Source of the DNA: an uncultured Alistipes sp. | GTDB taxonomy: Bacteria > Bacteroidota > Bacteroidia > Bacteroidales > Rikenellaceae | DNA: 64,000 nt | Reading direction: 5' to 3' | NCBI GenBank assembly: GCA_944321175.1 | Contig: CALUKI010000023.1 | Location: forward strand, 1-64,000 | Shown: in pieces, positions 20,519 to 49,332 of the stretch | How the letters are laid out: every line of letters starts with the position of its first letter | Position numbering within the stretch: the stretch's first letter is position 1 | Program-made: the position numbers and the translations under genes | Notes under the pieces: generated by a model | What the model was told of the DNA's origin: nothing | Database searches by the model: none | What the model saw: the letters and a program-made list of their open reading frames with translations, nothing else

Positions 20519-22681
20519 TTATTTGATGACGGGCGACTGCACCGTCACATAGGGGCAGCCGTTTCCTTCACATGTCGAGACGATCCGTATGGCGCGAATC
20601 GGCTCTTCGGGACGACGGAGCATCCAACCGCCCTTGACCAGCTCGCCCGCACGTTCGAAAGTCTCGCCGTCGGCGCTCAGTTCGACATAACCCGTCGTGA
20701 AGATGAAACGCGGCAGTTGCAGATTGCCCGTCCGCACGGCAATTTCACGGCAAGTGAACGGCTCCTCGAAATCGTAGCGGATCCAGTCGCCCTTCCGGCA
20801 GGTGCGGGCCGTGCGGGCGATGCCGCGATACTCTTCGGCCCGCACATACGGGAACTCCTTGCTTTCACCCATCGAGGTCGTGATCTTCACGGCCGGTTGA
20901 AGCGTCCGGTAGTAGGCCGGAGCGCCGACTTCCGGGCTGCGGCCGCTCCGATAGCGGCTGCGGAAAAGGAAGCGTTCGGGGTGTTGGGTCCGGATCGCTC
21001 CCGTATAAGGTTTCTCCTCGGAATCCCCCTCCGTATAGGTCAGCTGCGAACCGTCCTCGACGGATGCGCTGAGCAGGCCGTTGCGATAGTTCACGCGGGG
21101 CGGCATCAACCGGAACCGGATACCCTGTGCACCCATTGCATCGTAATAGACCTTCAGCCGGCGGTAAAATTCGGGCCATTCGCGCAGGCCGTCGCTCCAA
21201 CCGATCTCCGAAAGGGCACAGATGCGCGGGAAGGTCATGTAGTCGAGATAATCGGCCTTTTCGGGTTCATGCGAGACATAGGCTTCGCTCCAGAAGGCGC
21301 CCTCGACGCCCAGGACGTTCGCCACCTGAGCGGGGGAGAAGCCGCACTTCCCGAAATCGAACGAATAGGTTTTGCGGACATCGAAGATCGCAGCCCAGTC
21401 GTGCCCCTCCTCATGAGGCGACTGCCGCATGTCGAAATAGAAATAGGCGCCGGGCATCACGACGGTACGATAGCCTTGAGCCGTAGCTTCGAGACAGGCA
21501 TCGACATCCTTCCAGCCATGCACGCGGGCATTGCGGGGCAGATTTCCGCCCCGGATGGCCTCGTTCCACACGGCAGGGCGTTTTCCGTTTGCTTCGAGGA
21601 TACGGCTCACGCGGCCCAGAAAATACTGTTCGATGGCGTGGCCGTCCGCAAGCCCCTCACGGCGCTTCAAGGCCTGGCAATCGGGACAACGGTTCCACTG
21701 GGTCATATCGACCTCATCGCCGCCGATATGGATATACTCCGAAGGGAACAATGCCGACACCTCTCCCATGATATCGGCCAACAGGTGGTAGTTCTCCTCG
21801 CGGGCGGCGCACCACACCGAGCGGTAGTCGTAACCGGCCGTCACATCCAGATCGGGCGTATAGTTGCAGAGGATTTCGGGATGCACGCGGGCGATATTGC
21901 GGCTGTGCGCCGGCAGATCGAACTCCGGAATGATCTCGACGTTGCGCTCCTCGGCATAACGGATCAGATCACGCATCTGCTCCTGCGTATAGAATCCGCC
22001 GTATTTTTCATCCCACTTGCCATAGACGGGCCATACGGGGGAATCCCCGCCGCGCCAGGCGCCGATCTCGGTCAGTTCGGGATGCGACTTTATTTCGAGT
22101 CTCCAGCCTTCGTCATCGGAGAGATGCAGATGCAGCTTGTTGATTTTCAGATGCGATATCAGGTCGATATGCCGTTTCACGCGGTCGGCATCCATCCAGG
22201 TGCGGGCCACATCGAGCATCATGCCCCGGTAGTGAAACCGGGGTTCATCAACGATCCGGCAGGCCGGCACCGTCAGAGGCAGGGTAGCGCGCTTCGTATA
22301 GACCTCCGGCGGCAGGAGCTGCAGCAGCGACTGCAAGCCGTTGAAGACGCCGCCGTAGTCGCCGCCGGTAATGCGGACGCCCTGCGGCGTTACCTCCAGA
22401 CGATAGGCCTCCGCGCCGAGGGTGTCGTCGATGAGCAGGCGCAGGGATTGTCCTGCAGTCCATGTCCGGTCATCGATTTGCCGCAAGGGGATATATTCGG
22501 TAATGTATTCGGCGAGCGGTTCGAGGCCCGACGCATAGATTACCGGTATGCCGGGCGTAAAGACGAATTGTCCCTCGTGCATATCGACACTGTTCGGTCG
22601 CGGCAGGATCGTCGTGGCGGCATTTGCCGCCGCACAGAGAGCGGCAAGGAGAAGGATCAGCAGAGATTTCGATTTTCCCAT
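20519..22681 (-). CDS. Beta-N-acetylhexosaminidase, GH20
   Basis: The product has 720 residues and a signal peptide (about 1-22). An N-terminal GH20b-like domain (about 25-145) is followed by the catalytic TIM barrel (from about YRGMMLDVARTWM at 151). The catalytic Asp322-Glu323 pair lies in IHIGGDEVDMTQW, as expected for substrate-assisted catalysis on terminal GlcNAc/GalNAc. Beyond about residue 540 comes a C-terminal discoidin/F5-8-like region. It would trim N-acetylhexosamine from mucin, N-glycan or chitin-type substrates in the periplasm or at the cell surface. It starts 6 bp after the Nim-like gene, so the two are probably co-transcribed. Confidence 0.96.
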   Translation of the reverse strand: MGKSKSLLILLLAALCAAANAATTILPRPNSVDMHEGQFVFTPGIPVIYASGLEPLAEYITEYIPLRQIDDRTWTAGQSLRLLIDDTLGAEAYRLEVTPQGVRITGGDYGGVFNGLQSLLQLLPPEVYTKRATLPLTVPACRIVDEPRFHYRGMMLDVARTWMDADRVKRHIDLISHLKINKLHLHLSDDEGWRLEIKSHPELTEIGAWRGGDSPVWPVYGKWDEKYGGFYTQEQMRDLIRYAEERNVEIIPEFDLPAHSRNIARVHPEILCNYTPDLDVTAGYDYRSVWCAAREENYHLLADIMGEVSALFPSEYIHIGGDEVDMTQWNRCPDCQALKRREGLADGHAIEQYFLGRVSRILEANGKRPAVWNEAIRGGNLPRNARVHGWKDVDACLEATAQGYRTVVMPGAYFYFDMRQSPHEEGHDWAAIFDVRKTYSFDFGKCGFSPAQVANVLGVEGAFWSEAYVSHEPEKADYLDYMTFPRICALSEIGWSDGLREWPEFYRRLKVYYDAMGAQGIRFRLMPPRVNYRNGLLSASVEDGSQLTYTEGDSEEKPYTGAIRTQHPERFLFRSRYRSGRSPEVGAPAYYRTLQPAVKITTSMGESKEFPYVRAEEYRGIARTARTCRKGDWIRYDFEEPFTCREIAVRTGNLQLPRFIFTTGYVELSADGETFERAGELVKGGWMLRRPEEPIRAIRIVSTCEGNGCPYVTVQSPVIK

Positions 22682-27234: not shown

Positions 27235-27266
27235 CAAAGATACGAAAAGTCGAGCGCAGAGACAAA
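27235..27266 (-). promoter_or_regulatory. pheT-proximal promoter (repeat copy 1)
   Basis: TTTG (27266-27263), 20 nt and TATCTTTG (27242-27235) on the minus strand form a full match to the consensus. Transcription would start about 30 nt before pheT. Confidence 0.75.
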
Positions 27267-27487
27267 TGAAAACGCAGTTTTCGATTTGGCTATGCCGAGA
27301 CGGAGTATCTAAGGAGAAGCCAAAGATACGAAAAGTCGAGCGCAGCGGCAAATGAAATCGAAGTTTTTGATTCGGCTGTGCCGGAACGGAGTATTCAAGG
27401 CGGCGCCAAAGTACGAAAAGTCGGGCGCAGCGGCAAATGAAAACGCACTTCATCCACATCGGCCCTTCCGAGACGGAAAATCCGAAA
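27235..27487 (-). repeat. Three tandem 86-bp repeats, each with promoter boxes facing pheT
   Basis: The copies start at 27235, 27321 and 27407; the first two are exactly 86 bp, and the third decays after about 45 bp. Read on the minus strand, each ends in TTTG, a 20-nt spacer and a -7 box. Copy 1 (27266-27235) and copy 2 (27352-27321) have exact TATCTTTG. Copy 3 (27437-27407) has TACTTTG, one base short. The shared core is TGCGCTCGACTTTTCG. From memory, similar units occur between genes in other Bacteroidales and give spurious hypothetical proteins. Confidence 0.85.
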
Positions 27488-27709
27488 CAAGAGACGAGCA
27501 CATAGACATTGGAAGCGATATTTCCGAATTCGGGACGGAGAGGCCCAGGACAAGCCACAGGCGCAAAAACCTCCGAATCACAACCGGAATCGCCCGAAAG
27601 ATTGCGCCCCTGCACTTTGGACGCCGCAAAAGCGGGTAAAAAACCTTGCGGGAAGTTTTCATTTTCCGCCGATTTTTATTATCTTCACGACACAAAACCT
27701 GCGAACCGA

Positions 27710-28375
27710 ATGTACCGTATTCCCCGCATAGCCTGCAATTCCGCCTGTCCGGCCTCCGTAGAGGCGGCCTTTGCGCTAACCCGGCCCGAAACAATCGGCT
27801 GCAACAATTGGGCGGAAGCCTATCCCTACATGCCCCATGCAACGTTCCGCATCTTCCATACGGGCGAAGAGCTGCTGTTGCGATTCGACGTCGAGGAGCA
27901 GGATACGGCGGCGAAGGTTCTCGACGACAACGGCCCTGTATGGACCGACTCGTGCGTGGAGTTTTTCTTCCGTCCGGACACGGGCGACCGTTACTACAAT
28001 TTCGAAACCAACTGCATCGGCACAATGCTGTTGGGCCGCCGGCGGAGCCGCGACGATGCGGAACATGCTCCGGCCGACGTGCTGCGCCGGATCCGGAGGC
28101 AAACGACATTCCCCTATCGCCGGCCGGTCGCAACGACGGAGGACAACCGGTGGCGACTGACGCTCGTCATCCCCGTCACGGCACTGTTCGGCGAAGAGCT
28201 GAAGAGCTGGGCGGGCGTGCACGGAAGCATGAATCTCTACAAATGCGGCGACTCGCTGGCACGGCCGCACTACCTGTCATGGCAGCCCGTGGCCACGCCG
28301 CACCCCGATTTTCACCGGCCCGAATTTTTCAAGCCGGTTCTCTTCGAGCCGCAGACCGACAAACAAAACAGATAA
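27710..28375 (+). CDS. CBM9-like carbohydrate-binding protein
   Basis: The product is 221 residues from the ATG at 27710. The fold signals are those of the family 9-like carbohydrate-binding module found as a stand-alone protein in Bacteroidota: [20 protein letters not shown], then [26 protein letters not shown], and a C-terminal [15 protein letters not shown]. There is no signal peptide, so it appears cytoplasmic, which is unexpected for a glycan-binding domain. It lies 13 bp before glpK and so appears to be the first gene of the glycerol operon. Its role there is unknown. Confidence 0.82.
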
Positions 28376-28388
28376 ATACAGAGACTCC

Positions 28389-29891
28389 ATGAAACCGAAG
28401 TATGTATTGGCACTCGATCAGGGGACGACCTCCTCGCGTGCCGTAGTGTTCAATTCCCGCTGTGAAATCGTCGCGATGTCGCAGCGGCCGTTCAACCAAC
28501 AATTCCCGCATCCGGGCTGGGTGGAGCACAACCCGCTGGAGATCTGGTCCACACAGTCGTTCGTCATGGAAAACGCCGTCAACAAGGCGGGGGCCGACTG
28601 GACGGAAATCGTGGCGCTGGGCATCACAAACCAACGCGAGACGACGATCGTCTGGGACCGTGCGACCTCCGAACCGATCTACAACGCCATCGTATGGCAG
28701 GACCGCCGCACGGCTGAATATTGCGACACGTTGCGGGAACAGGGGCTGACCGAACGCATACGGGAAAAGACGGGACTGATTCTCGACGCCTACTTTTCCG
28801 CCACCAAGATCCGGTGGATTCTGGACAACGTGCCGGGAGCGCGGATACGCGCCGAGCGGGGTGAATTGTGTTTCGGGACGGTCGATACCTGGCTGACATG
28901 GCGGCTGACGGGCGGACGGCTTCATGTGACCGATGTCTCGAACGCCTCACGCACGCTGCTTTTCAACATCCATACGCTTGCATGGGACGAAGAACTGCTC
29001 GACCTGTTCGACATCCCCCGGTCGATATTGCCGAAGGTTGTACCGAGCAGTGCCGTCTATGGCATGACGGAGTGCCCGCAGATTCCCAGTCCGGTACCGA
29101 TTGCCGGCATCGCAGGAGACCAGCAGGCTGCATTGTTCGGCCAGCAGTGCATCGAGCCCTATTCAGCCAAGACGACCTACGGCACCGGCTGTTTCATCAT
29201 GCTCAACACGGGCGACAAACCGCACATGTCGGAAAACAATCTGCTGGCAACCGTCGCATGGCAGCGCAACGGGGAGACGGCCTACGCCCTCGAAGGAAGC
29301 GTTTTCGTGGGCGGGTCGATCATCCAGTGGCTGCGCGACGGTCTGAAATTCTTCTCGTCGTCGGCCGATTCGGAGGCCCTGGCAGCATCGGTCGAGGATT
29401 CCGGCGGCGTCTGTCTCGTACCGGCACTGACGGGCTTGGGAGCCCCCTACTGGGATCCCTATGCACGGGGGACGATCATCGGCATCACACGGGGCACGAC
29501 CTCGGCGCACATTACCCGCGCGGCGCTCGAAGCAATCGCCTTTCAGGTGGATGACGTAGTACGGGCAATGGCGGCCGATACGGGCCATACCTCGACCGAT
29601 ATGCGCGTCGATGGCGGAGCGGTGTCGAACAACCTGCTCATGCAGTTCCAGTCGGATCTGACAAACGTGAAGATCATCCGGCCGGCGGTGATGGAGTCAA
29701 CGGCATTGGGTGCGGCATTGTTTGCCGGTCTTGCCGTCGGATTCTGGCATTCGACCGATGAAATCGGCACGTTGCTGCGTCCGGAACGCACCTTCACGCC
29801 GCAGGCCGATCCGGCGGAGATGGAGCGGCGGCGGCGCTTGTGGCACAAGGCCGTAGGCCGGAGCCTGCATTGGGCCGAACAATCCGAATAA
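28389..29891 (+). CDS. glpK: Glycerol kinase
   Basis: The product has 500 residues. It phosphorylates glycerol to sn-glycerol 3-phosphate. The FGGY-family hallmarks are present: [14 protein letters not shown] at the N-terminus, [10 protein letters not shown] (about residues 79-88), [11 protein letters not shown], the [16 protein letters not shown]-site segment and [14 protein letters not shown] near the C-terminus. It is preceded by the CBM9-like gene (13 bp) and followed by the glycerol facilitator (33 bp), forming a compact glycerol-uptake operon. No glycerol-3-phosphate dehydrogenase is present in the window. The glycerophosphodiesterase at 37789-38649 could supply glycerol 3-phosphate indirectly. 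Confidence 0.98.
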
Positions 29892-29924
29892 CCGGACAGA
29901 AAAACTCAAACAACCGAAACTACC

Positions 29925-30662
29925 ATGACACCTTTTCTTGCTGAATTCATCGGAACGGCCGTACTGGTATTGTTGGGTACGGGCGTATGCGCAAACGTAT
30001 CGCTGCCGCATACGAAGGGGCACGGCAGCGGACTCATCGTCGTCATTTTCTCGTGGGCGATGGCCGTATTTGCGGGCGTCGTCATTGCGGGCCCGTACAG
30101 CGGGGCGCATCTCAATCCGGCCGTCACGCTGGGCTTCGCCGCATGCGGGCTCTTTCCCTGGGGTGATGTTCCGGCCTACGTCCTCGCACAGATGTGCGGG
30201 GGTTTGGCAGGCGCCCTCGTCATGTGGCTTTTCTACCGCCACCATTTCAATCTGGAGGAGAATCCCGATACGATACGCTGCGTCTTCTGCACCTCTCCGG
30301 AGATCCGCAAACCGGCCTCGAACCTGCTGAGCGAGACCATTGCGACATTCGTGCTGGTCTTCGGAATCTTCTACATTACCGACGGGCATCTGGCCTCGGC
30401 GGAAGGCGATCTTCCCGTCGGACTGGGATCCGTCGGCGCCCTGCCCGTAGCGATGCTCATCCTGGTCATCGGCGGTGCACTGGGCGGCACGACGGGATAT
30501 TCGCTCAATCCCGCGCGCGATCTCTCGCCGCGCATCATTCATGCGCTGGTGCCGATCCGCCACAAGGGGCCGAGCGACTGGGGCTATGCGTGGATCGCTT
30601 CGGTCGGGCCGCTCATCGGAGCCCTGCTTGCTGCGGGTGTGCAGCGGCTGCTTCCGGCATGA
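29925..30662 (+). CDS. glpF: Glycerol facilitator (aquaglyceroporin, MIP family)
   Basis: The product has 245 residues with six transmembrane helices and the two pore motifs HLNPAVTLGF and SLNPARDLSPR. The Asp after the second NPAR is the signature of glycerol-conducting members rather than strict water channels. Its position right after glpK supports glycerol uptake coupled to phosphorylation. It ends the operon; hairpins lie downstream at 30712-30740 and 30813-30848. Confidence 0.95.
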   Translation: MTPFLAEFIGTAVLVLLGTGVCANVSLPHTKGHGSGLIVVIFSWAMAVFAGVVIAGPYSGAHLNPAVTLGFAACGLFPWGDVPAYVLAQMCGGLAGALVMWLFYRHHFNLEENPDTIRCVFCTSPEIRKPASNLLSETIATFVLVFGIFYITDGHLASAEGDLPVGLGSVGALPVAMLILVIGGALGGTTGYSLNPARDLSPRIIHALVPIRHKGPSDWGYAWIASVGPLIGALLAAGVQRLLPA

Positions 30663-37788: not shown

Positions 37789-38649
37789 TTATTTCAACAA
37801 CGGGCACCATCCTTTCGTCTGAATAAACGGCAAATACGATTGACACCATCCGGCCACATCGATCACGGCATCGCAACACAGACAATCACTGCCAAGAGCT
37901 ATTCCCAGCAACAGATCATGACGTGAAGCGACCGGCCACAGCGAAACGGACATTCCGATGTCATGAGCAAAATCGACTGCCGCACGAGTCGATCCGTCCA
38001 TTTTGCAGGCGATCCGATGAATACCCATCCGACGGGCCTCCATGACAACCGAAGCCGAACAAGGCTGCGTTTTCAACAACATCAGTTCGGCATCGGGATG
38101 GCGGGCCTTCATGGTCGTCAACGCACGTTTATCAAACGACGAAAAGACATAGCATGAGCTTGCAGGCTTGTGAGCCATAGCCATATGGTAGAGTTTATCG
38201 ATCAAATCGTCGAGCATGGCCTGTGTATAAAGCCAATCCACCGTTTTAATCTCGAATTCCACATACATATCCTCCTTGTCCGAGAGGAAGTCGCAGAACT
38301 CGTCACAAAAAGCCAGAGGATTCCCCTGTCGCGTGCGAAGACGGCGGCACTCTTCTGTCGTCAAATCTTCCGTTTGCACATCGACTCCACAAGTACGGTA
38401 AAGCGACTCGTCATGAGACAGAATCAGATCTCCGTCACCCGTCATGCGCACATCGATTTCAAAACCACGCGCTCCGGCATCATAACTCCGCCGGAAAGCC
38501 TCCATCGTATTCTCATCGAACTCGAAACGGCTGCCCCGATGCGCCAGAAACTGAAACGTTCTGTTTCCTGCATTTTGAGCGCCAAGCTCGGTCATCGGAG
38601 AAATCGTCAAAAGCAATCCGAGAATTTTATAAAGAATACGGGTCTTCAT
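37789..38649 (-). CDS. Secreted glycerophosphodiester phosphodiesterase
   Basis: The product is 286 residues from the ATG at 38649; a GTG nine codons earlier is possible. A signal peptide (about 1-24, ending ELGAQ) is followed by a GDPD TIM barrel with the catalytic and metal residues in place: His37-Arg38 in FLAHRGSRFEFDENT, Glu64 and Asp66 in FEIDVRMTGDG, His79 in LSHDESLY, and EFEIKT. It would release glycerol 3-phosphate from deacylated phospholipids such as glycerophosphoinositol or glycerophosphocholine. It is the last gene of the phosphoester locus, 31 bp after the phosphatase remnant. The active site looks intact. Confidence 0.92.
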   Translation of the reverse strand: MKTRILYKILGLLLTISPMTELGAQNAGNRTFQFLAHRGSRFEFDENTMEAFRRSYDAGARGFEIDVRMTGDGDLILSHDESLYRTCGVDVQTEDLTTEECRRLRTRQGNPLAFCDEFCDFLSDKEDMYVEFEIKTVDWLYTQAMLDDLIDKLYHMAMAHKPASSCYVFSSFDKRALTTMKARHPDAELMLLKTQPCSASVVMEARRMGIHRIACKMDGSTRAAVDFAHDIGMSVSLWPVASRHDLLLGIALGSDCLCCDAVIDVAGWCQSYLPFIQTKGWCPLLK

Positions 38650-38680
38650 TGTTGAATCATCATTACTAAGCCTCACTCAA

Positions 38681-39736
38681 TTAACGACAGGGAGATTCTT
38701 CCAGGATACCGAAAGCCGGAGCCTCGACCCGTGCAGGGCGGTCAAAACCCAACTCCTTGACAGCAGGGAGTTCCGCGATATGTGCCATTTTGTCCGTCAT
38801 ATAACGGCGCAGATCATCCCAACGATAATATGGTGCAATATCACTGGCAAGCGGGATACGGCATTCGTGTTCATTGTGCAACAGTTTGACGATCGTATCC
38901 CCAGCCTCATTGCGGAAAAATACGAATTGCACATTTGCCGACATGGGCGAGATGCGGAAATCCACCCATACCTCCTTGAGATGCTCCCAATCGTCGGTAC
39001 GGGCACACATCCCCTCTACTTCCATGGTTGCCAGCAGAGCGATAACCGTATAATCATGTCCGAATCGCAAAAAGGCCGAACGATTCTCACCCGCCAGTTT
39101 CGCATCGAAATCATCGACGATGGAACGCATTACCGATGCACCGTCCTCGAAAATCGCATCACCCCAGCGATATGAAGTACCGTATTGCGCATAACGGTAC
39201 GCATTGATCTTCTCCCAGACAGCCATCCGCTCCTGCGGAGTGAAAAGATCGTCGATGCGGGTATCGCCTTCGGTATTCTGCATCATCATCATCAAATCGA
39301 ACAACGAACGGACAAAGACGTTGCATTTGTCAGCCTCCGAAGCCGTAAAGGCGGCATAACCGGGTTTGAAGATACGCGCCAGCACAGCAGGAGATATGCG
39401 GTCGATCTCACGATCGATACGCGGCAAAGTTGCAGCTTTGGCCTCCGCCTGAAAAGATTTGTGTCCGCGCAGCGTATTGGTAAAGGGTTGCACGCGGGCG
39501 TTGGAGGTCTGATATATGCGGATTTTCGGATTCAGTTCCGTCAGCCGCTGATTGAAGGCCGCCATTGTCAGGATGCAGCGCGGAAAGATCGAAGAGTAAG
39601 CCTCGACAAAGACATCGTCCCCTTCGAAGAGCGAGGGATAGGATGCCGCCATCCGTTCGGCAATACCGCGCTGCTCGGCAATCCCCTGCGGCGAGATTTT
39701 TATCAACAAGGACAACAGCTCTTCACGCATCCGCAT
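38681..39736 (-). CDS. Histidine-type phosphatase lacking its catalytic N-terminus (probable remnant)
   Basis: The 351 residues match the middle and C-terminal part of Bacteroidota histidine acid phosphatases of the MINPP/phytase type. The segments are SPQGIAEQRGIAERM, the FPRCILTMAAFNQRL stretch, and the proton-donor motif His227-Asp228 in RFGHDYTVIALLA. The part that should come first, a signal peptide and the RHGxRxP nucleophile motif, is absent. A stop codon (TAG) sits immediately before the ATG in frame. I found no RHG-encoding stretch in any minus-strand frame of the 387 bp upstream. As it stands it cannot be an active histidine phosphatase. A functional ancestor probably hydrolysed inositol phosphates. 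Confidence 0.8.
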   Translation of the reverse strand: MRMREELLSLLIKISPQGIAEQRGIAERMAASYPSLFEGDDVFVEAYSSIFPRCILTMAAFNQRLTELNPKIRIYQTSNARVQPFTNTLRGHKSFQAEAKAATLPRIDREIDRISPAVLARIFKPGYAAFTASEADKCNVFVRSLFDLMMMMQNTEGDTRIDDLFTPQERMAVWEKINAYRYAQYGTSYRWGDAIFEDGASVMRSIVDDFDAKLAGENRSAFLRFGHDYTVIALLATMEVEGMCARTDDWEHLKEVWVDFRISPMSANVQFVFFRNEAGDTIVKLLHNEHECRIPLASDIAPYYRWDDLRRYMTDKMAHIAELPAVKELGFDRPARVEAPAFGILEESPCR

Positions 39737-39835
39737 CTACCGATAAAACAGCGCACGGAATCCGCTTCACGAAAATCCGTACAGGGAGAAACAGCCAAAT
39801 GGCAGGTCTGCGTTTATCATCAGTTTCCGGGCAGA

Positions 39836-39852
39836 ACAAACGTTTGCGCAAA
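39836..39852. promoter_or_regulatory. Operator-like palindrome, second copy
   Basis: ACAAACGTTTGCGCAAA is identical to 48916-48932. It contains the palindromes CAAACGTTTG and TTTGCGCAAA. The shape resembles LacI/PurR-family operators. It lies 100 bp before the truncated phosphatase. Confidence 0.4.
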
Positions 39853-39949
39853 AACTGAAAGAAGCAGGAGACGGGAGGAACAGGACGGCAAAACCAGTCT
39901 TCCAATCCTGAGTTGATCTAAAACCGCGAGAAATCGGTGGGACAGAAGA

Positions 39950-40099
39950 GTGTTCCGACAATCAGCAGGCCATAACACACCTTCATGTATGTTTCCAACA
40001 ACATGCGCATTCATCGGAAACATTCATGCAAGGGCCGACAGGAAACCGAACGGCTTTCTGCCGGCCCCTAAAGAATCCTCGTTCCGGTTGTCGGAACAC
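39950..40099 (-). repeat. Nested inverted repeats after susD (candidate three-way-junction RNA)
   Basis: The outer arms are a perfect 12 bp (39950-39961 with 40088-40099). Inside are two hairpins: a 13-bp stem with one mismatch (39984-39996 with 40016-40028) and a GC-rich stem (40032-40048 with 40051-40067, interrupted). Together they would fold into a three-way junction beginning 25 nt after the susD stop. It could be a processing or stability element for the susCD mRNA, or the trace of an inserted element. Confidence 0.55.
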
Positions 40100-40123
40100 A
40101 CAGGCGAAACAACCTGGGACGGA

Positions 40124-41866
40124 TCAGAAATTCAAACCGTCTTCCCAACCGGGGTTCTGCGTCAGCGCCGGGTTCAACGTACGCTGTGATGCGGGAACGG
40201 GCCAGAGATAATCCCGATTATCATCCCAGTTCCGGCCATGCACGGCACCGGAATAACCGACGATATAGCCATTCGTCGAATTGCTCAGGATGATATCCGT
40301 ACCAATTCTCAACTTCGTCGCACAAGTTGATGTTGCCGTTTCGGTGTAGATCTCCAGATCGGGCGAGCCATCGTTGTCCATATCGTATGTACCCGGGCCG
40401 GGGATGTAACAGCCGTAGTAGGGCTGATAATAATTCAACGCCTGTTTTGCTTCGTTCCAGCGGAACAGATCCCACGAACGATAAGGAACTTCAAGAACGA
40501 GTTCGATGGTACGTTCGCGCCGAATCTCCAGAATGACACCCGTATGCTTGCTCTGCGTAACATTGGGATAGCACTTCAGCAGATAGGGGTCGGGATCGGC
40601 GTTGGCCTTTGCAAGATCGAGCGAAGGCATATTTGCACGTTTCCGAATCCGGTTGATCGATATTTCGAGGTCATTCTGCGTGATGGTACCCAGCTCGGCA
40701 ACCGCCTCGGCATAATTCAGATAGACCTCGGCAGCACGCATCAGAATCCAGTCACTGGCACTGGAGCCCGATGTTGCGGAATTTTCCACCGTACCGATGA
40801 ATTTAATCGGTTCATAACCCGTATGAGAGGAAAGCGTACACTTGGTCACGGCCGATGCGCCGACCTGTACATAGCCGGGGCACAATACGGTCTGCGCCAT
40901 CCGCGGGTCGCGGTTCACGGTCTCTTCACTGTAGGTCATCTTCTCCCATCCGTCACGATCGGTAAAACGCGAACCGTCGGCCATCAGATAATGGTTAACA
41001 AAACGACGGGTAAGGCTTGTACGTCCGAACTTGATGTTGTACGGCACGGAATGAGTAATACCGAATGCCTTGTCGTAACGGCGGCACAGCACCACTTCGC
41101 AGGTCTTGGCGTCTTCCGAATAGAAGAGTTCACGATACGGCTCTTCCCCTTCCGAATAGAGATAAAAAGGCGATTCATCGATGAACTCTTTGGCCGTTGC
41201 GGCAGCCTGCTGCAGGTATTTGTCGGCATCGGCCATTCCATGATACTTACGGAACGTACCTTCGTAGAGTGCTGCACGGCTCGCATATGCGAGCGCCGCC
41301 CACCGCGTCACGCGCGTATGCTGTGTACCCCATTCGGAAGGAAGGTTCCTGGCCGCGAAATCGAAATCCTCCAGCACCCGATCCATGACATATCCCCGGT
41401 CATCGCGCGGCTTGTAGATGTCGGGGTCGGTGGAACCGAGAACATGGTCGTAATAGGGGACATCGCCATAGGTACGGACTCTGAGGAAGTAGAAATAGGC
41501 ACGGAAAAAGCGTGCTACAGCTTCGTATTTCGTCGCCAGCGTCCGATCCGGGCACTGATTAAGGTGTTCGAGCAGATAGTTTATTTTACGCAACGGCGTG
41601 AAAGACCACGATTGCGATGCAGCATTGCGTGCTCCGGAAATGTAGTCGCTCAATCCGTTGTCGATTTTGTCATCGGCATCGTTGACGCCGATGTCGGCCG
41701 ATTCAAGATTGTCACTGTAGAACTGATTGCTCCAAAGCGTGAGATCCGATTCATTGCGGAAATACTGATCAGGCGAAAGTTCGTCTTCGGGCAGCATCGT
41801 CAGATCGCAACCGACCGTTGCAAATGCGAGAGCCCCCAATGCCAGGATTTTATTGATGATTTTCAT
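40124..41866 (-). CDS. SusD/RagB-family nutrient-binding outer-membrane lipoprotein
   Basis: The product has 580 residues. A lipoprotein signal with the lipid-attachment Cys20 (FATVGC) is followed by the SusD-like N-terminal domain (LPEDELSPDQYFRNESDL) and the TPR-rich SusD_RagB core (AEVYLNYAEAVAELG near residues 375-390, then RIRKRANMP, and the C-terminal RTIELVLEVPYRSWDLFRW). It would cap the SusC barrel and bind the imported ligand at the surface. It lies 21 bp after susC. The binding site cannot be deduced from the sequence; the phosphatase genes around it suggest a phosphorylated ligand. Confidence 0.95.
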   Translation of the reverse strand: MKIINKILALGALAFATVGCDLTMLPEDELSPDQYFRNESDLTLWSNQFYSDNLESADIGVNDADDKIDNGLSDYISGARNAASQSWSFTPLRKINYLLEHLNQCPDRTLATKYEAVARFFRAYFYFLRVRTYGDVPYYDHVLGSTDPDIYKPRDDRGYVMDRVLEDFDFAARNLPSEWGTQHTRVTRWAALAYASRAALYEGTFRKYHGMADADKYLQQAAATAKEFIDESPFYLYSEGEEPYRELFYSEDAKTCEVVLCRRYDKAFGITHSVPYNIKFGRTSLTRRFVNHYLMADGSRFTDRDGWEKMTYSEETVNRDPRMAQTVLCPGYVQVGASAVTKCTLSSHTGYEPIKFIGTVENSATSGSSASDWILMRAAEVYLNYAEAVAELGTITQNDLEISINRIRKRANMPSLDLAKANADPDPYLLKCYPNVTQSKHTGVILEIRRERTIELVLEVPYRSWDLFRWNEAKQALNYYQPYYGCYIPGPGTYDMDNDGSPDLEIYTETATSTCATKLRIGTDIILSNSTNGYIVGYSGAVHGRNWDDNRDYLWPVPASQRTLNPALTQNPGWEDGLNF

Positions 41867-41887
41867 GGTATTTCAGATTATTGGTTC

Positions 41888-44800
41888 TTAGAAAGTGATG
41901 TCGATGCCAAACGAGAAAGTCTTCGGCATGATATATCCCGTACCGGACCCTGCCTTGTAAAGGCCGTCCGATACAGCCAGTTCGGGATCGATCAGCTTGC
42001 AATACTTTTTCAACGGCGACCAATAGCAAAGGTTCTCACCCGATACATAGATACGCAGTTTGCTGATATACCGTTTCAGAGCAGGAATCGTGTAACCGAT
42101 CGTAAGGTTCTTGAAACGCAGATAGGCCACACTTTGGAGATAACGGTCGTTATTCTGACCGAGAGGGCCGCCATTATAGCTTTGGATGGGGCGCAGACGC
42201 GGGAAATAACGGTCGGGGTGTTCCTCGGTCCATATATCGTCCATGAAATCGTAGGTAATGAACGAAGGGATGGTATAGCCGTACAGTTGCCAGAACTGGT
42301 TGGAGCCATAGATGTCATCCTTATTCGCAGCAGGATACCAGTCACGTTTTCCGACACCCTGGAAGAAGGCCGAAATATCGAAACCGTTCCAACTTGCCTC
42401 GATACGGAAAGAATAGTTGTAACGGGGCGTCGAGTTTCCGATGATGATCATGTCGCCCGGATCATCGACCGTACCGGCTCCGGTACCGATCGAACCGCTG
42501 TTGTCACGATCTTCAAACATCACGTCGCCTGCCATCAGCTTACCCAGATTGTTCTGCATGTTGTAAACGCGCTGATAAACGTTGCTGCTGTTGTTGATCG
42601 CCTTCTGATAAGCGGCGGCTTCCTCGTCCGTATCGAAGAGTTTCGGTACATGGTAGCCCCAGATTTCGCCCAGCATCTTTCCTTCATAATAACTGTTAAA
42701 CAGTTTTGTAGGATTGTTGTATTTTGTGATTTCGGTCTGGTAGTCTCCCACCTGCCCGGTGATGCTGTAATGGAAAGGTTTCCCTGCAAGTTGGAAGCGA
42801 TCGCGCCATGTAAGCGAGAACTCCCAGCCTTTCGTCCGCAAATCGGCACAGTTCTCGGTGGGGGTAGCAGCACCGTACACCGACGGCAAGGTCAGCGATT
42901 GGGTCAGCATATCCTTCGTATCGCGAATGAACAGGTCGCCCGTGAACGACAGACGGTTGTTCAGGAAACTCAGGTCAAGACCGAGGTTGTAGGTGCGGAC
43001 CGTCTCCCACGTCAGGCTCGATGACATCGGATCGGATACCGAAGCATAATTTGCCTTCCCGCTCTCATCGAAGAGGTAGTTGAGCGTACCTGTTCCGATC
43101 GTCTGGAGATAGAGGTAATCGGCCACCTGCTGGTTTCCCAGCTCACCGTACGACAGACGAATCTTACCGTTGTCCCACCAACTGCTCAACGGCTCCATGA
43201 AAGGCTCCTCGGTGAACCGCCAACCGGCCGATACCGACGGGAAAATGCCCCAACGATCCTTTTTCGCAAAACGCGATGTACCGTCGGCCCGCAACGAAGC
43301 CTCAAAGAGATATTTGCCATTGTAGTCGTAGTTGATACGGCCGAAGAAACCGAGTGTTTTATAGGCCGATATATCCTGTGTTACGATCCAGTAGGTGTCG
43401 TCATTGACCGAATTGAACGAATCGAGCTGTTCACTTCCGACTCCGAACTGTTCGACGATATTGTCCGTCATACGGTAACGTTCGTAGTTCATACCCGCAA
43501 CCGCCTTGAAATTATGCGCGTTGTTCCATGTATGAGCATAAGTCAGGTAGGCATCGACGTTGTGGTAGGTATATTCGTAAGGACGTTCGCGGTAGGTATC
43601 CTTCTGATAGTGCGTTGTCGATTTCGAGACACCGATCGCATCGGAATAGGTGTTGGCCACCGTACGGTCCTTGTACAGGCGCCGATAGTTGTTGATGTTA
43701 TAGTTTGCGTCGAAGGTCAGACCTTCGTATAGTTTGATATTCAAGCTATTGGACAGCGTCAACGAAAGGTTTTCGATCGTATGCTTGTTTGCAGGGTCCG
43801 CCAGCGATGCCGTACGGCCCTTACCCAATGAAACATTACGCAAATCGGCCGGATACATCACGATCGAACCGTCGGGATTGTAGGGCACGAACATCGGAGC
43901 GACGTTCTCCTCCAACGCCGCAATCGTTTGCGCTTCATTAAGCGTGCCGGGATATTTTTGGTTCACGGCATTGAGCGAGGCATTTGTCGACCATTTGGCC
44001 CATTTGAAAATCCGGGCATCGAATTTGGCGCGGAACGCATAGTTCTTATACTTCTCCTTCTGCTGGATCATACTGCCGCTCAGGACACCGTCCTGTTCAT
44101 AGTAACGGCCGCTGACATAGTAGTTCATGCTCTGCCCGCCGCCCGAAAGCGAAAGGTTGTGCTCCTGATGGAAACGGTTGGTGTTATAGATGCTGTGATA
44201 CCAGTCGAAGTTTCCGTAATAGTGGTACTTGCCGTCATCGCCGACTACGACCCAAGGACGGTCGGGATGTTCGGTCTTGTCGTACCTGCGTGCTTCGAGA
44301 GCGGCCCAATCGGCCTCCGTATAGTTGAAAGCGCTGTACGCATAACGCGAGAAGTAGAGATTATCAACGATTTTGGCATAATCATAACCGTTGGTGATAA
44401 AGTCCGTCGGCGTTGTCGGTTGTGTCCAGCCGATATTGTTCGAATATTTTACGACGGCCTTTCCCTGCGAACCCTTCTTCGTCGTCACAAGAATCACGCC
44501 GGCTGAAGCCTTCGCGCCATAGATTGCGCTTGCCGACGCATCCTTAAGTACCGAGATCGACTCGATATCCGTCGGATTGACCAAACGCAGCGACACACCC
44601 GGCACACCATCCACCAGAATCAGCGGCGAGCCGCCGTTGATCGAAGGTACACCCCGAATGTTGAGACTGTTTCCGGCGATGGGATTACCCGATTCGATAC
44701 TGATATTAAGCGATGGATCGACACCCTGCAACGCCTGCATGGTCGAAACGACGGGCCGTTGCGCCAGTTCATCGCCCGATATCGACGAGACGGCACCCGT

Positions 44801-45241
44801 CACATTGATTTTTTTCTGTGTAGCATAACCTACGACAACCACATCGCTGAGCATCTGTGCATTTTCGGAGAGTTCGACCGTCAACGTCCCTGAAGCCGGA
44901 ACCTTGACCTCCTGCGTATCATATCCGACGAAGGAGACGGCCAACATCTGGCCTGTTGCCGCACGCACGACAAAAGCTCCGTCGGCATCACTCGTCGTCC
45001 CCGTTGCGGCGGCAGCATTGTAGATAGTCGCGCCAACGATGGGAGCACCTTTTGCATCGAAGACCCGTCCCCTGACATTGCGCAGGGTCGATTCGTAAGA
45101 CTGAACCATTTGAACGGCGTTGTTCTCCGCAACATCGGCCGCCTGCAGGCGGGCCATAGGCAGGAGCGACAGTCCGATACTCAACAACATGACGCCGAGA
45201 CGTCCTTTTGCCGGAATCCGGCATGTATGATTGTTTTGCAT
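41888..45241 (-). CDS. SusC/RagA-family TonB-linked outer-membrane transporter
   Basis: The product has 1117 residues. A signal peptide (about 1-35) is followed by a CarboxypepD_reg-like domain (about 55-140, GRVFDAKGAPIVGATI), a TonB-box-like stretch and plug (about 150-260: LSDVVVVGYATQKKINVTGA, then GGSPLILVDGVPG and SVLKDASASAIYGAKASAG), and a 22-strand barrel ending in FSFGIDITF. These are the SusC-specific signatures. It is coupled to the downstream SusD and preceded at 21 bp by the BACON/LamG-like lipoprotein. The import substrate is unknown, probably a phosphoester or phosphoglycan judging by its neighbours. Confidence 0.96.
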   Translation of the reverse strand: MQNNHTCRIPAKGRLGVMLLSIGLSLLPMARLQAADVAENNAVQMVQSYESTLRNVRGRVFDAKGAPIVGATIYNAAAATGTTSDADGAFVVRAATGQMLAVSFVGYDTQEVKVPASGTLTVELSENAQMLSDVVVVGYATQKKINVTGAVSSISGDELAQRPVVSTMQALQGVDPSLNISIESGNPIAGNSLNIRGVPSINGGSPLILVDGVPGVSLRLVNPTDIESISVLKDASASAIYGAKASAGVILVTTKKGSQGKAVVKYSNNIGWTQPTTPTDFITNGYDYAKIVDNLYFSRYAYSAFNYTEADWAALEARRYDKTEHPDRPWVVVGDDGKYHYYGNFDWYHSIYNTNRFHQEHNLSLSGGGQSMNYYVSGRYYEQDGVLSGSMIQQKEKYKNYAFRAKFDARIFKWAKWSTNASLNAVNQKYPGTLNEAQTIAALEENVAPMFVPYNPDGSIVMYPADLRNVSLGKGRTASLADPANKHTIENLSLTLSNSLNIKLYEGLTFDANYNINNYRRLYKDRTVANTYSDAIGVSKSTTHYQKDTYRERPYEYTYHNVDAYLTYAHTWNNAHNFKAVAGMNYERYRMTDNIVEQFGVGSEQLDSFNSVNDDTYWIVTQDISAYKTLGFFGRINYDYNGKYLFEASLRADGTSRFAKKDRWGIFPSVSAGWRFTEEPFMEPLSSWWDNGKIRLSYGELGNQQVADYLYLQTIGTGTLNYLFDESGKANYASVSDPMSSSLTWETVRTYNLGLDLSFLNNRLSFTGDLFIRDTKDMLTQSLTLPSVYGAATPTENCADLRTKGWEFSLTWRDRFQLAGKPFHYSITGQVGDYQTEITKYNNPTKLFNSYYEGKMLGEIWGYHVPKLFDTDEEAAAYQKAINNSSNVYQRVYNMQNNLGKLMAGDVMFEDRDNSGSIGTGAGTVDDPGDMIIIGNSTPRYNYSFRIEASWNGFDISAFFQGVGKRDWYPAANKDDIYGSNQFWQLYGYTIPSFITYDFMDDIWTEEHPDRYFPRLRPIQSYNGGPLGQNNDRYLQSVAYLRFKNLTIGYTIPALKRYISKLRIYVSGENLCYWSPLKKYCKLIDPELAVSDGLYKAGSGTGYIMPKTFSFGIDITF

Positions 45242-45262
45242 AGTACGTTCGTTTTAAGGTTG

Positions 45263-46636
45263 TTATTTCACGAGTTTCCAAAGGGCATAGACCTGCTCGG
45301 CCGTCAGCGGATCGCCATAGACACGCGCGATTACCACCTCGCCCTTGAACGAGATCTGTCCCGTATCGTCGGCTCCGGGATCGGCTCCGATTCCGAACCA
45401 GCGTTTGTTGACATTCGTATTCATGTGTTTGAATTCGCCGCCGGCATTGTCATTGGTGGCTTTCAGTTCGCCGTTGACGTAAATCTTCTGCGTTCCGGCC
45501 TCCTTGTCCCACACACCCACAACATGGTAATATACATCCTTCTGTGGTGTGACGCCGCTCTTGCATTGCCGCCATGTATTTCCACCGGTGGAACTCAGCG
45601 TACCGGTCTCCATAACGATCTGATTCGAGTCGTCAGCCCAGAAGCAGAGACTTACACCTCCGGCTTCGGATGCAGCAAACGGTTTAATCTGCAGTTTTTT
45701 AGGATCGTCATAACGCCGGACAAGCATTTCCATCGTATATCCGTCCTCCATCTTGCTCTTGAAGGTCTCATTCTCGTAATATGGGATCGTATAGTAGCCG
45801 CCGGTCAATTTCGACAATCCCGGTTCGTGTGTAAATACGGCTGCATAACGGCCATACTTCTCAAGATAGGTTGTCGTGACAAATTCATTGGGCCGTAACT
45901 CGACAGGCATCTTCAACGGCGACACATCCTCCGCAGCGCCGTTCTCACCGAAGACCACATCCAACAGGTCGGCGGTCGGAGGATCTACCAGATAGCCCTG
46001 CTGCACATCCACATATGTAAAGACTTCGGGATGAAGTTCCGAAAAGATTTTTATTTGGACCTCCCGGATACTTCCCGTATGGTTTTCGGTCACGGAGAAG
46101 GTCACATCGGCGGCCGTTTTCGAAGTCTGCGTCAACCAGTCATGCTCTCCGACGAAATCGCACGACCATGACGTCTGATTGGTCGTGACGGCAATAGTGA
46201 ACTCCGTCGCATCGCCGATGAGCGGCACCGAAGTCGGTGTGACGTCGATATAGGGCTGTTCTTCGGCCTGCGTAATCGTATAGAGATAGCGGGCTTCGCT
46301 CTCACCCTTGAAGTAGAACGACAGTTGTGTTGAACGTACGGCACCGCTGGTATTCGACTTTGCAGACAATGTCACCGGCGTGCTGCCTGTTCCGCCGCTT
46401 GACACCGAAAGTGTAAAGCCGTCCGTCTGGGAAAGCATGGCCGACCAGTCATCTGTCGCCATGACAGTGAATTCCACTGTTTGGGGCTTCCCGTCGATCT
46501 CAATCGTCTGCGACGAATCCGTTCCGTTGGGGCTGACGACCTTGAAGATCGGCGTACGATTCAGATCGCCTCCGCTGTCATTGCATGCCGCAAGCAATCC
46601 ACTTGCAGCAATAAACATGGTTAGCAGTCGTTTCAT
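45263..46636 (-). CDS. Surface lipoprotein with BACON-like domains and a LamG-like C-terminus
   Basis: The product has 457 residues with a lipoprotein signal (Cys18 in LLAACND). Two Ig-like BACON-type domains follow (about 30-125 and 128-220, each with a conserved Trp after a Thr/Asp-rich strand: TDDWSAML and QTSWSCDF). The last 230 residues look like a concanavalin-type LamG jelly roll (YTMEMLVRRYDD, then VYYHVVGVWDKEAGTQKIYVNGEL, and the repeat-end motif ISFKGEVVIARVYGDPLTAEQV). It is probably a surface ligand-binding protein of the SusCD locus, equivalent to SusE/SusF-type partners. It sits between the metallophosphoesterase and susC. Confidence 0.85.
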   Translation of the reverse strand: MKRLLTMFIAASGLLAACNDSGGDLNRTPIFKVVSPNGTDSSQTIEIDGKPQTVEFTVMATDDWSAMLSQTDGFTLSVSSGGTGSTPVTLSAKSNTSGAVRSTQLSFYFKGESEARYLYTITQAEEQPYIDVTPTSVPLIGDATEFTIAVTTNQTSWSCDFVGEHDWLTQTSKTAADVTFSVTENHTGSIREVQIKIFSELHPEVFTYVDVQQGYLVDPPTADLLDVVFGENGAAEDVSPLKMPVELRPNEFVTTTYLEKYGRYAAVFTHEPGLSKLTGGYYTIPYYENETFKSKMEDGYTMEMLVRRYDDPKKLQIKPFAASEAGGVSLCFWADDSNQIVMETGTLSSTGGNTWRQCKSGVTPQKDVYYHVVGVWDKEAGTQKIYVNGELKATNDNAGGEFKHMNTNVNKRWFGIGADPGADDTGQISFKGEVVIARVYGDPLTAEQVYALWKLVK

Positions 46637-46809
46637 AAAGTAATGGTTTAAGTTAATAAATGGAATAGTGATGGTTCATCATATACTTGCCAACTCCTGA
46701 CAATCGTATAAATTTTCCGTCGGACACGATGACGGGCGGGCGACACGGATCGGTAATCCCCGATTCGCAACCGGCAAGCATCCCGCACGTCATCGGCCGA
46801 GGATAAAGA

Positions 46810-48879
46810 TTACCACTGCGACGAGTTGGTCATGTCGTAAAAGCTGCGGGGGCGTGTCATTGTCTCACGATAGACCCGTCCGAAATCATCGGTCACCGTA
46901 ATTTCCAGTGTGGACGTTGCCGACGAGCAGAAGACCTCAAACATATGGGAGGTCAACAACGTCGGGAATGTCATGGCCGTTGAATTGGTATTCATACGGT
47001 TCATATTGAAATGCACCGTGTGCAGCGGATCGTAGGTATCGAGTTGCGTAACGGCAAGTTCCTTGTCGGTCTCGACTTCGACAACCTTCAGCCGCCACTG
47101 TTCGTTCCAGTCGAAAATATTGATCAACACGGCATTGTCACTGCGAGCCCGATCATAGCCATTGGCGTATTGAGAGAAGAATTCGGCGCTGACCGTTGAG
47201 AAATTATTGGCGATACGCGGACAGTAGGTCTCGCGTGTGATATGTGTCTCGTTCAGATCGTAGCACCGGAACTGATAGTCGGCCGACCTGCCAATCGGTT
47301 GATAACGCCATGACACAGCGCCCGGAGCACGTTCTCCGATATCGAACACTTTATAGCCGCCGGGCGAACCGTCGCGACACATCTGGCAACGTCCGCCTGT
47401 ATAATATCCCGTCCACCACCAGGTTGCACATACCGCAGCAATGTTGTGCTCCATCAATCCGTCGTCGATAAAATTCGTATAATTGATATGCGTATGCCCC
47501 GTTACCAGATGTGCATCATACGGCGCCAATAATTCGGCGATGCGCGACCGATATTCGGATGGCATGGCGTAGCTCCACGACAACTTGCCGTTTTCGATTT
47601 TATAGCGATTGGAATATTGGATATGCATTCCGAGAAAGACGGTGGAACCCGCCGGCACATTCTTCAAATCGGCAGCAAGCCAGCGCAACTGGTCGTCCGT
47701 AAAACCTTCCGTATAGTTCAACTCTCCGACGGTTCCCTGAGCACCGCCTGAATTGATGAAAAGCGTATTGTCCATCTGAATATAATGGACATTGCCGACA
47801 TTGAACGAATAATAGGTCGGGCCGACGGCATCCCGCCAGGGAGCCGTTGATTCAAAATCATCGGCGACATAGGGATCGTTATCGTGATTGCCCGGAATAT
47901 TATAGACCGGCAGATCGAGATCGGCCATCTGAGCGACGTAGTCCGAAGGTTGGAAACGGTTTACATACCACCATTCATCCCACGACAAGTCCCCCAATGC
48001 CATTGCATAAAGAGCAACGCCTTCAGCTTTTGCACGGGAGATTTCCTCCTTGAGATCGGCCTTGAACCCCTGTTCAAACTGATTGATGTCGTTCGTACGG
48101 TTTGCCAGATGGGTATCGGTATAGACAAGCATCCGATGCCGTTCGTTGGGCTCGGCCGCCAAGATGAAACAGCACTGTTCGTATGTTGACGATGAAGCCT
48201 CCAAACGTCGGAAAAAGCGGGGAATCGAGCGGTCGACAGCCACACGATACCCGCCGGGAACCGATATAAAGACATATCCGTATTTCTTGAGCGAGGCGAG
48301 GTAGTAGCGGCCGTTCTCGTCGGTAGTCGTCACAAAAACGCCGTCCGAGACGCTGACATTGGGGATCGGATTACCCGAAGCGTCGATCACACGGCCGTAA
48401 ACGGTATTTCCCGCCACTTGCGGAACTTCAGAGCGATCGACCACATCGACAAACGTTGTTCCGAGATCGATTGTCGCACCGTCGTTTTTATGATACAGGA
48501 GTTTGTACATGCCTCCGATGAAACCGGAGGGTGTCGATAGGGTAGCCCCATCGTCATCGATGCCCGCAACGGGAATATCGTAAGTTTCGGAGGCATCGTT
48601 GCGTGAAACCAGCTGCAAATGATCCGCCGGATCGATTCCTTTGCAAGGGAGCCGGAAGCTGCCGTTGAACGCCATCACCAGAGCATCCCCGACTTTATAT
48701 TTCGTAATGTCAGGCAACTCCGACGGATCCGGATCTACTTTTTCTTCATCTCCAGGGGAGGGGGGGGGAAATTTTTCCTCATCACTACCGCTGCATGAAC
48801 ATATCGCGACAGACAGGATGCAGACGGCCATTCCCAAACACCGGCAGGCATGATTCAGGACGCTGTAATTCTTCTTCAT
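46810..48879 (-). CDS. Surface lipoprotein with three-domain calcineurin-like metallophosphoesterase
   Basis: The product has 689 residues with a lipoprotein signal (cysteines at 27 and 29). A Ser/Pro/Asp/Glu linker containing three prolines encoded by a C9 run follows, then a MetallophosN-like Ig domain (about 150-225). The catalytic domain carries the metal motifs in order: YTDTHLANR (DxH), ALGDLSWDEW (GD), NIPGNHDNDP (GNHD), GMHIQ and GHTHINYTN (GHxH). A MetallophosC-like domain completes it. The active-site residues are all present. It opens the phosphoester locus and is the likely first cleavage enzyme at the surface. Its own promoter and operator-like site lie at 48916-48961. Confidence 0.92.
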   Translation of the reverse strand: MKKNYSVLNHACRCLGMAVCILSVAICSCSGSDEEKFPPPSPGDEEKVDPDPSELPDITKYKVGDALVMAFNGSFRLPCKGIDPADHLQLVSRNDASETYDIPVAGIDDDGATLSTPSGFIGGMYKLLYHKNDGATIDLGTTFVDVVDRSEVPQVAGNTVYGRVIDASGNPIPNVSVSDGVFVTTTDENGRYYLASLKKYGYVFISVPGGYRVAVDRSIPRFFRRLEASSSTYEQCCFILAAEPNERHRMLVYTDTHLANRTNDINQFEQGFKADLKEEISRAKAEGVALYAMALGDLSWDEWWYVNRFQPSDYVAQMADLDLPVYNIPGNHDNDPYVADDFESTAPWRDAVGPTYYSFNVGNVHYIQMDNTLFINSGGAQGTVGELNYTEGFTDDQLRWLAADLKNVPAGSTVFLGMHIQYSNRYKIENGKLSWSYAMPSEYRSRIAELLAPYDAHLVTGHTHINYTNFIDDGLMEHNIAAVCATWWWTGYYTGGRCQMCRDGSPGGYKVFDIGERAPGAVSWRYQPIGRSADYQFRCYDLNETHITRETYCPRIANNFSTVSAEFFSQYANGYDRARSDNAVLINIFDWNEQWRLKVVEVETDKELAVTQLDTYDPLHTVHFNMNRMNTNSTAMTFPTLLTSHMFEVFCSSATSTLEITVTDDFGRVYRETMTRPRSFYDMTNSSQW
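48760..48768 (-). repeat. G9/C9 run inside the metallophosphoesterase gene
   Basis: On the + strand it is G9; on the coding strand, nine C encoding Pro38-Pro40. Slippage by one base would shift the frame just after the lipoprotein signal. Confidence 0.9.
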
Positions 48880-48961: not shown

Positions 48962-49303
48962 TTCGAATGTTTTTTTACATGCGAACTGAAAAATAAAAAA
49001 ATTTAATATATACATGAAACTGGAAATAGCACGATTGCAGAATTAAAATAAGGAGTAAAATAGAATGCTGTCAGGGTCACCGGAACAGTTGCAATAAACT
49101 TCTTTTGAATGTTAGGGCCGTCTCATCCGAACGCATTATTCCAATGCAAGGATCAGGCGAGTGCATTCGATTGAAGCTCTCTTCATCTAAAGATGACCGA
49201 TATTTTCGTATTGAGACAAATAAAGAAGCAGGACACACGCAAAATCTTGAAAATTCCCGTTCGGAACCGTCCGGACAACCGCAAAACCGCAGACACCAAA
49301 GAA

Positions 49304-49332
49304 AACGGGACGGAATGATTCCGTCCCGTTTC
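49304..49332. terminator. Terminator after the DUF1015 gene
   Basis: A 14-bp perfect inverted repeat around one central base (49304-49317 and 49319-49332). On the minus strand TTTTCTTT follows; T-rich sequence also lies on the + side. Confidence 0.85.

Follow-up and report, generated by a model that had tools for sequence, protein, structure and literature searches.

A metallophosphoesterase-bearing SusC/SusD locus of Alistipes and its possible link to ribose-containing phosphoesters

We have analyzed a stretch of 64,000 nucleotides (the window) from an uncultured Alistipes species, concentrating on a block of genes at positions 37789-48879. Four of these encode a metallophosphoesterase (MPE), a LamG-containing lipoprotein, a SusC-type transporter and a SusD-type lipoprotein; genes for a histidine phosphatase and a glycerophosphodiester phosphodiesterase (GDPD) follow. 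The first four very probably constitute a phosphoester-directed SusC/SusD (SusCD) unit in the general sense. Sequence comparison gives about an even chance that this quartet is the transport unit for a ribose-bearing phosphoester, such as a nucleotide, a short RNA fragment or an NAD- or ADP-ribose-like compound, because the SusC, SusD and LamG proteins, the set expected to decide the ligand, are orthologous to those of loci that carry ribokinase, permease and nucleoside hydrolase genes. The fullest form of the proposal is offered more tentatively. It would be an importer of the SusCD type that serves exclusively for nucleotides or fragments of nucleic acids and is encoded in one operon with a ribose cassette, mainly in Bacteroidales of the rumen and animal gut, with just its outer-membrane half present in two Alistipes species. 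The genome, 2.36 Mb in 36 contigs, is 99% complete, and its contig C23 is the window.

Orthologues of the quartet are present in 14 loci of other Bacteroidales, mainly metagenome-assembled genomes from the rumen and animal gut, with identities to the window proteins of 46-55% for MPE, 58-66% for SusC, 58-65% for SusD and 40-47% for LamG. In the SusD tree the window, its sister species and 13 other Bacteroidales entries form one clade of 15 members with support of 100/100. The MPE tree agrees, with a 16-member clade that includes the window (SH-aLRT 100), and the LamG protein was found only in the orthologous clade, where it keeps the same position in the locus. Ten orthologous loci have sufficient upstream DNA for the cassette to be counted, second copies being excluded. 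Nine of them have it in full or in part, that is a ribokinase, a RusT/RhaT-type permease and/or an IU-type nucleoside hydrolase within about 10 kb. None of the three was found within 7 kb of the MPE at 64 more distant MPE loci, although a statistic on this contrast of 9/10 with 0/64 would be no true probability, since common descent links these loci and the same clade supplied the queries. The cassette ribokinase matches TIGR02152 with 357 bits (cut-off 300), the nucleoside hydrolase IU_nuc_hydro (PF01156) with 66.7 bits (cut-off 34), and the permease Ureide_permease/Sugar_transport. A LacI regulator is often present too, nearest to the RbsR/PurR models but below their cut-offs. The gene order in locus L205 is ribokinase, permease, nucleoside hydrolase, MPE, LamG, SusC, SusD and a BACON lipoprotein, with gaps of 11, 6, 4, 33, 14, 12 and 15 bp. 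This is the tight spacing of an operon, and L207 is similar. The same permease, in 20 other genomes of the order, has a ribokinase close by in 13 and a nucleoside hydrolase in seven, so a role in ribose transport is reasonable; SusC was nearby three times. The initial annotation, which took the block for a SusCD locus built around phosphoesterases, had reckoned that relatives always carrying glycoside hydrolases at this locus would speak against it. No such enzyme is among the 25 families listed around the orthologous loci.

If the ligand is of this kind, the LamG and SusD lipoproteins would hold it at the cell surface, where the MPE would hydrolyze its phosphoester or phosphodiester bond, and SusC would import the nucleotide or nucleoside in a TonB-driven process. 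A nucleoside hydrolase would then release ribose, a RusT/RhaT-type permease of the inner membrane would take it up, and a ribokinase would convert it into ribose 5-phosphate. Genes for these last three steps are in the same operon in related Bacteroidales, and on other contigs in the window Alistipes. Gene content, orthology, co-occurrence, purifying selection, the intact MPE motifs and the lost active site of the phosphatase are observed; the surface location, the direction of the pathway and the ligand itself are what we infer. In the window genome a permease (75% identity) and a ribokinase (55%) are adjacent on contig C27 and the sole nucleoside hydrolase is on contig C22, from which the ribose pathway is predicted to be present, but split over contigs.

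The MPE (46810-48879, minus strand, 689 aa) comprises MetallophosN, Metallophos and MetallophosC domains (Pfam PF16371/PF00149/PF16370). All the metal motifs that the initial annotation had read are there, and D255xH257, G296D297, G330NHD333, H419 and G461HxH464 are invariant across 39 homologues. The DxH, GD, GNHD, H and GHxH motifs, taken with the MetallophosN and MetallophosC domains, identify a calcineurin-like MPE. A Cys followed by SGSDEE suggests that it is probably a surface lipoprotein. A sequence search of the PDB with the MPE alone gave no match, and with the MPE as a profile the matches were weak, to wheat purple acid phytase with E about 8e-6. An AlphaFold2 model (pLDDT 88.4) has its best structural matches in the PDB with GpdQ (Z 22.4), Lmo2642 (Z 22.1) and Rv0805 (Z 21.2). 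These are tied, and we have therefore dropped any assignment of substrate from the structure search. The core of about 220 residues with two metals is common to the MPE and the phosphodiesterases GpdQ of Enterobacter aerogenes and Rv0805 of Mycobacterium tuberculosis, at 15-18% identity. Unlike these, the window protein is extended by domains at both ends, CarboxypepD/MetallophosN at the N terminus and MetallophosC at the C terminus, and it is predicted to be a secreted lipoprotein. SusC or SusD lies close to the MPE at 59 of the 64 distant Bacteroidota loci and at 34 of 39 other loci of the genus Alistipes and its family. Phosphoesterase-bearing SusCD loci are therefore a common kind. The window genome contains 12 MetallophosC proteins, the majority adjoining SusCD pairs.

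The resemblance of the MPE core to Rv0805, a nucleotide phosphodiesterase, counts in favor of a ribose-bearing ligand. Several points weigh on the other side. By the model, the core is just as close to a glycerophosphodiesterase, GpdQ, and MPEs are often promiscuous. The wider MPE family is often found beside GDPD and GlpT, and the window itself carries a GDPD. The ten orthologous loci are related, and are not ten independent events. Lastly, the ribose cassette is absent from both the window locus and the sister locus, which thus lack the gene content of a Rus-type ribose utilization locus, and a change of function may have taken place in Alistipes.

The initial annotation had presented all six genes as one block. 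They are indeed in place on the minus strand and belong to the families named, but they fall into two units. The gaps within MPE-LamG-SusC-SusD are 173, 21 and 21 bp, while 387 bp follow SusD. Within this longer gap the region 40020-40123 has a folding energy of -46.1 kcal/mol (z -4.2), equaled by none of 200 shuffles; two terminator-like hairpins, neither with a long T run, lie directly 3' of SusD at 40028-40098 (minus strand). The sister species (G164) has a different hairpin (-31.7) 3' of its SusD. At the same site of the sister genome, from an AMP-binding gene to a DUF1015 gene, the four core proteins are present with identities of 85% (MPE), 90% (LamG), 97% (SusC) and 98% (SusD). Both GDPD and histidine phosphatase are absent from that locus, about 590 unrelated bases standing in their place. 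The proposed comparison of gene order in relatives therefore shows a conserved quartet without the last two genes. Six genes as one conserved operon are ruled out by the sister, which lacks two of them, and by the dividing hairpin. The nearest homologues of the GDPD, in other Alistipes (56-66%), lie away from SusCD in the loci examined.

The histidine phosphatase had been called truncated, correctly. What is left (38681-39736, minus strand) matches the C-terminal part of the branch-2 family His_Phos_2 (profile positions 258-354 of 354, E 9.5e-5, slightly below the cut-off). Its alignment with intact homologues starts near their residue 117, so that by tblastn the first ~116 residues are missing, and a tblastn search of 38600-40300 did not find the region of the RHG nucleophile. 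Since this N-terminal part is lost the protein is presumed to be an inactive remnant. We have rejected a link to phytate because of the loss of the catalytic N-terminal part, and because of the location away from SusCD of its homologues in other Alistipes (about 50%), the intact ones being stand-alone or in tandem pairs in the loci examined. We read the GDPD and the dead phosphatase as a later, separate addition downstream of the quartet.

The quartet itself is maintained. Between window and sister the ratio of nonsynonymous to synonymous substitution (dN/dS) is 0.045-0.062 for the four core genes (0.062 for MPE), similar to the 0.025-0.062 of neighboring housekeeping genes, and all four are therefore under purifying selection. 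Synonymous divergence between 40124-48879 and the sister locus (L132) is 1.0-1.4 for MPE and LamG but 0.25-0.28 for SusC and SusD. This points to a mosaic locus in which the MPE-LamG part has recombined. The GC content at third codon positions is 0.54-0.64 for the six genes, compared with 0.74-0.80 for lepA, serC and glpK in the window, and a close MPE orthologue occurs in just one further genome among 180 of the genus. Together these suggest horizontal arrival of 37789-48879. In the Alistipes loci examined that have DNA there, none of MPE, LamG or SusCD lies within about 1.5 kb downstream of the DUF1015 gene.

The initial annotation had proposed a phosphorylated ligand. This stands insofar as we find a phosphoester-directed SusCD locus devoid of carbohydrate-active enzymes (CAZymes), but the glycerophosphodiester that it put first among its examples is probably wrong. 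On that proposal glycerophosphoinositol or glycerophosphocholine would be trimmed outside by the MPE, a periplasmic GDPD would release glycerol 3-phosphate, and the glycerol genes would use the product. We consider it unlikely. It does have a secreted GDPD adjoining the block (37789-38676, minus strand; PF03009 5.8e-28; 295 aa from a GTG, or 286 aa from an ATG at 38649) with the canonical HR...EN...ExD...HD pattern. It also has glpK (28389-29891) and a MIP/GlpF channel (29925-30662) within the window. These are the recognizable part of the glycerol operon that had been drawn at 27710-30662; the upstream part, 27646-28392, matched no NCBIfam family. The MPE core is nearest to GpdQ, if by a tied margin. 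In the wider MPE family GDPD neighbors MPE and SusCD at 13 of the 64 distant loci and GlpT at 22 of them, and in Parapedobacter (L218) SusC, SusD-like_2, DUF5689, MPE, GDPD and GlpT stand in a row. Yet these GDPD/GlpT loci mostly have that different type of SusD and lie outside the clade of the window. In none of the other 14 orthologous loci is a GDPD or GlpT close to the MPE, GDPD occurring in the window alone, 8 kb from the MPE. With the quartet lacking a GDPD in the sister, the hairpin separating SusD from the GDPD unit, and no GlpT at the window locus, neither a conserved GDPD nor the GlpT of such loci is found here. A separate operon on contig C4 encodes a glycerol-1-phosphate-dehydrogenase-like protein, a major facilitator superfamily transporter and a GDPD. 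The chain from MPE through GDPD to glycerol 3-phosphate is not supported for this locus: the sister has neither GDPD nor phosphatase there, the hairpin precedes both genes, the relatives examined have them apart from SusCD, and of the phosphatase a remnant is left. Other branches of the MPE family suit the idea better. In Sphingobacteriaceae and Flavobacteriaceae (for example L218, Parapedobacter sp. SGR-10; L220, Sphingobacterium tabacisoli) a homologous MPE (37-42%) lies beside SusCD, but with SusD-like_2, no LamG, and catabolism of the glycerol 3-phosphate type where the orthologous loci have the ribose type.

An equally doubtful alternative is general phosphate scavenging, in which a broad MPE di- or monoesterase and SusCD would serve to import assorted organic phosphates for phosphate and not for carbon. 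Its precedent is Pus, the phosphate utilisation systems of Flavobacterium (Lidbury et al., PMC8115612), where a SusCD-like transporter is co-localized with phosphodiesterases, one annotated CpdA, in place of CAZymes, and expression is induced by phosphate depletion. The targets proposed there are lipid headgroups and nucleic acids (PMC8115612). The window has the same co-localization, its MPE with intact motifs being 173 bp upstream of LamG-SusC-SusD, and the abundance of MetallophosC proteins near SusCD in a 2.4-Mb genome suggests various organic phosphates. However, Pus is defined by its induction, and the parts of PMC8115612 drawn on here mention no ribose cassette for it. The RbsR/PurR-like regulator and ribose catabolism of the orthologous loci point to carbon use, and neither PhoBR nor a phosphate transporter was noticed beside the locus.

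We regard as improbable a third alternative, a glycan containing phosphodiesters (phosphomannan, or a polymer of the capsule or teichoic-acid type, including ribosyl-ribitol-phosphate polymers) that the LamG lectin would bind and the MPE would cut. The LamG/ConA-like fold does resemble sialic-acid-binding CBM40 modules and pentraxins, and a phosphodiester glycosidase (NAGPA) domain occurs in a lipoprotein that follows the most similar SusCD pair not in the clade (G054, L092; 52/57%). But glycoside hydrolases are found neither in the block nor among the listed families of orthologous neighbourhoods, and a nucleoside hydrolase and ribokinase would be unexpected for mannans or glycerol teichoic acids. 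At L092 (G054:C5, 10736-14056) three DUF4988 lipoproteins follow the SusCD pair, the NAGPA domain being in the first.

The ribose-bearing phosphoester remains our preferred ligand, and the closest known system is Rus, the ribose utilization system of Bacteroides thetaiotaomicron, which carries a nucleoside hydrolase and ribokinases but, to our knowledge, no counterpart of the MPE or the LamG lipoprotein. It is said to have been described by Glowacki et al. in 2020. Rus (BT2803-2809) is a SusCD locus that supplies ribose from nucleosides and has a ribose permease, RusT (PMC12596196). Its gene set corresponds to that of the orthologous Bacteroidales loci, likened by gene content and not by protein sequence. 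The orthologous loci add the MPE and LamG lipoprotein, and the window genome has its ribose genes away from the locus. SusCD loci with phosphodiesterases are already known from Pus, and the type of locus described here combines features of Rus and Pus. In literature that was only partly covered we found no published SusCD locus with both a phosphoesterase and a nucleoside hydrolase. Our leading candidate, which we would put at evens, is a Rus-like nutrient system with an added phosphoesterase, for nucleotides or related ribose phosphates.

A SusCD pair is commonly taken for a glycan importer, with CAZymes expected alongside in automated annotation. This locus points to a distinct class of nutrient, the phosphorylated compounds of ribose. 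Dead cells and RNA-rich diets make these plentiful in gut and rumen. By their partners, the loci of Bacteroidota with MPE and SusCD are of at least two kinds, having either ribose genes or GDPD/GlpT, and this split yields a concrete rule, open to testing, by which the ligand of an anonymous SusCD pair can be predicted.

The block consists of six consecutive open reading frames, all on the minus strand, with domains assigned by Pfam and NCBIfam profile searches. The LamG lipoprotein (45263-46636, minus strand, 457 aa) has two BACON domains (PF13004) and a LamG/ConA-like lectin domain (PF13385, Laminin_G_3), and is presumed to be an accessory that binds the ligand. Its AlphaFold2 model (pLDDT 88) best matches 4dqa, a putative carbohydrate-binding protein of B. 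ovatus; toxin lectin domains and many other generic jelly-roll matches were regarded as shared fold only. SusC (41888-45241, minus strand, 1117 aa) is a SusC/RagA-type TonB-dependent outer-membrane transporter (TIGR04056, 849 bits, cut-off 368), and the adjacent SusD (40124-41866, minus strand, 580 aa) is a ligand-binding lipoprotein of the SusD_RagB family (PF07980, 1.6e-45), the two making a SusCD locus with a 21-bp gap. The profile searches found no glycoside hydrolase or other CAZyme among the six genes, as the initial annotation had stated, so this is not a polysaccharide utilization locus of the CAZyme type. The sole glycoside hydrolase found in the window is an unrelated GH20 beta-hexosaminidase-type gene at 20519-22681 (minus strand), 15 kb off the block.

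Other MPE loci are of some interest. In four other Alistipes loci (L139, L140, L142 and L151) an S1/P1 nuclease accompanies an MPE and two lipoproteins, one DUF5689 and one BACON, and L142 has a SusD2-type gene as well; these are possibly directed to nucleic acids too. In the same genome as the window, L081 (G000:C1) contains FAD oxidoreductases, a sodium:solute symporter, a Zn-dehydrogenase, a PfkB kinase, a full-length histidine phosphatase, two MPEs and SusCD, and may serve a phosphorylated sugar or polyol. MPE homologues (28-34%) are also encoded by three unannotated records from human feces labeled 'Bacteriophage sp.' (MT835678, MT836730, MT835685), which are probably misassigned bacterial contigs.

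Between the DUF1015 gene and the MPE gene a 14-pair inverted repeat at 49302-49332 is terminator-like on both strands. A promoter scan found no exact TTTG/TANNTTTG site upstream of the MPE. Elsewhere in the window the Bacteroidetes-type promoter motif TTTG...TATCTTTG occurs five times where 0.31 are expected. Two near-identical copies at 27235-27266 and 27321-27352 (minus strand), 86 bp apart, lie upstream of pheT, and another is right before lepA (33572).

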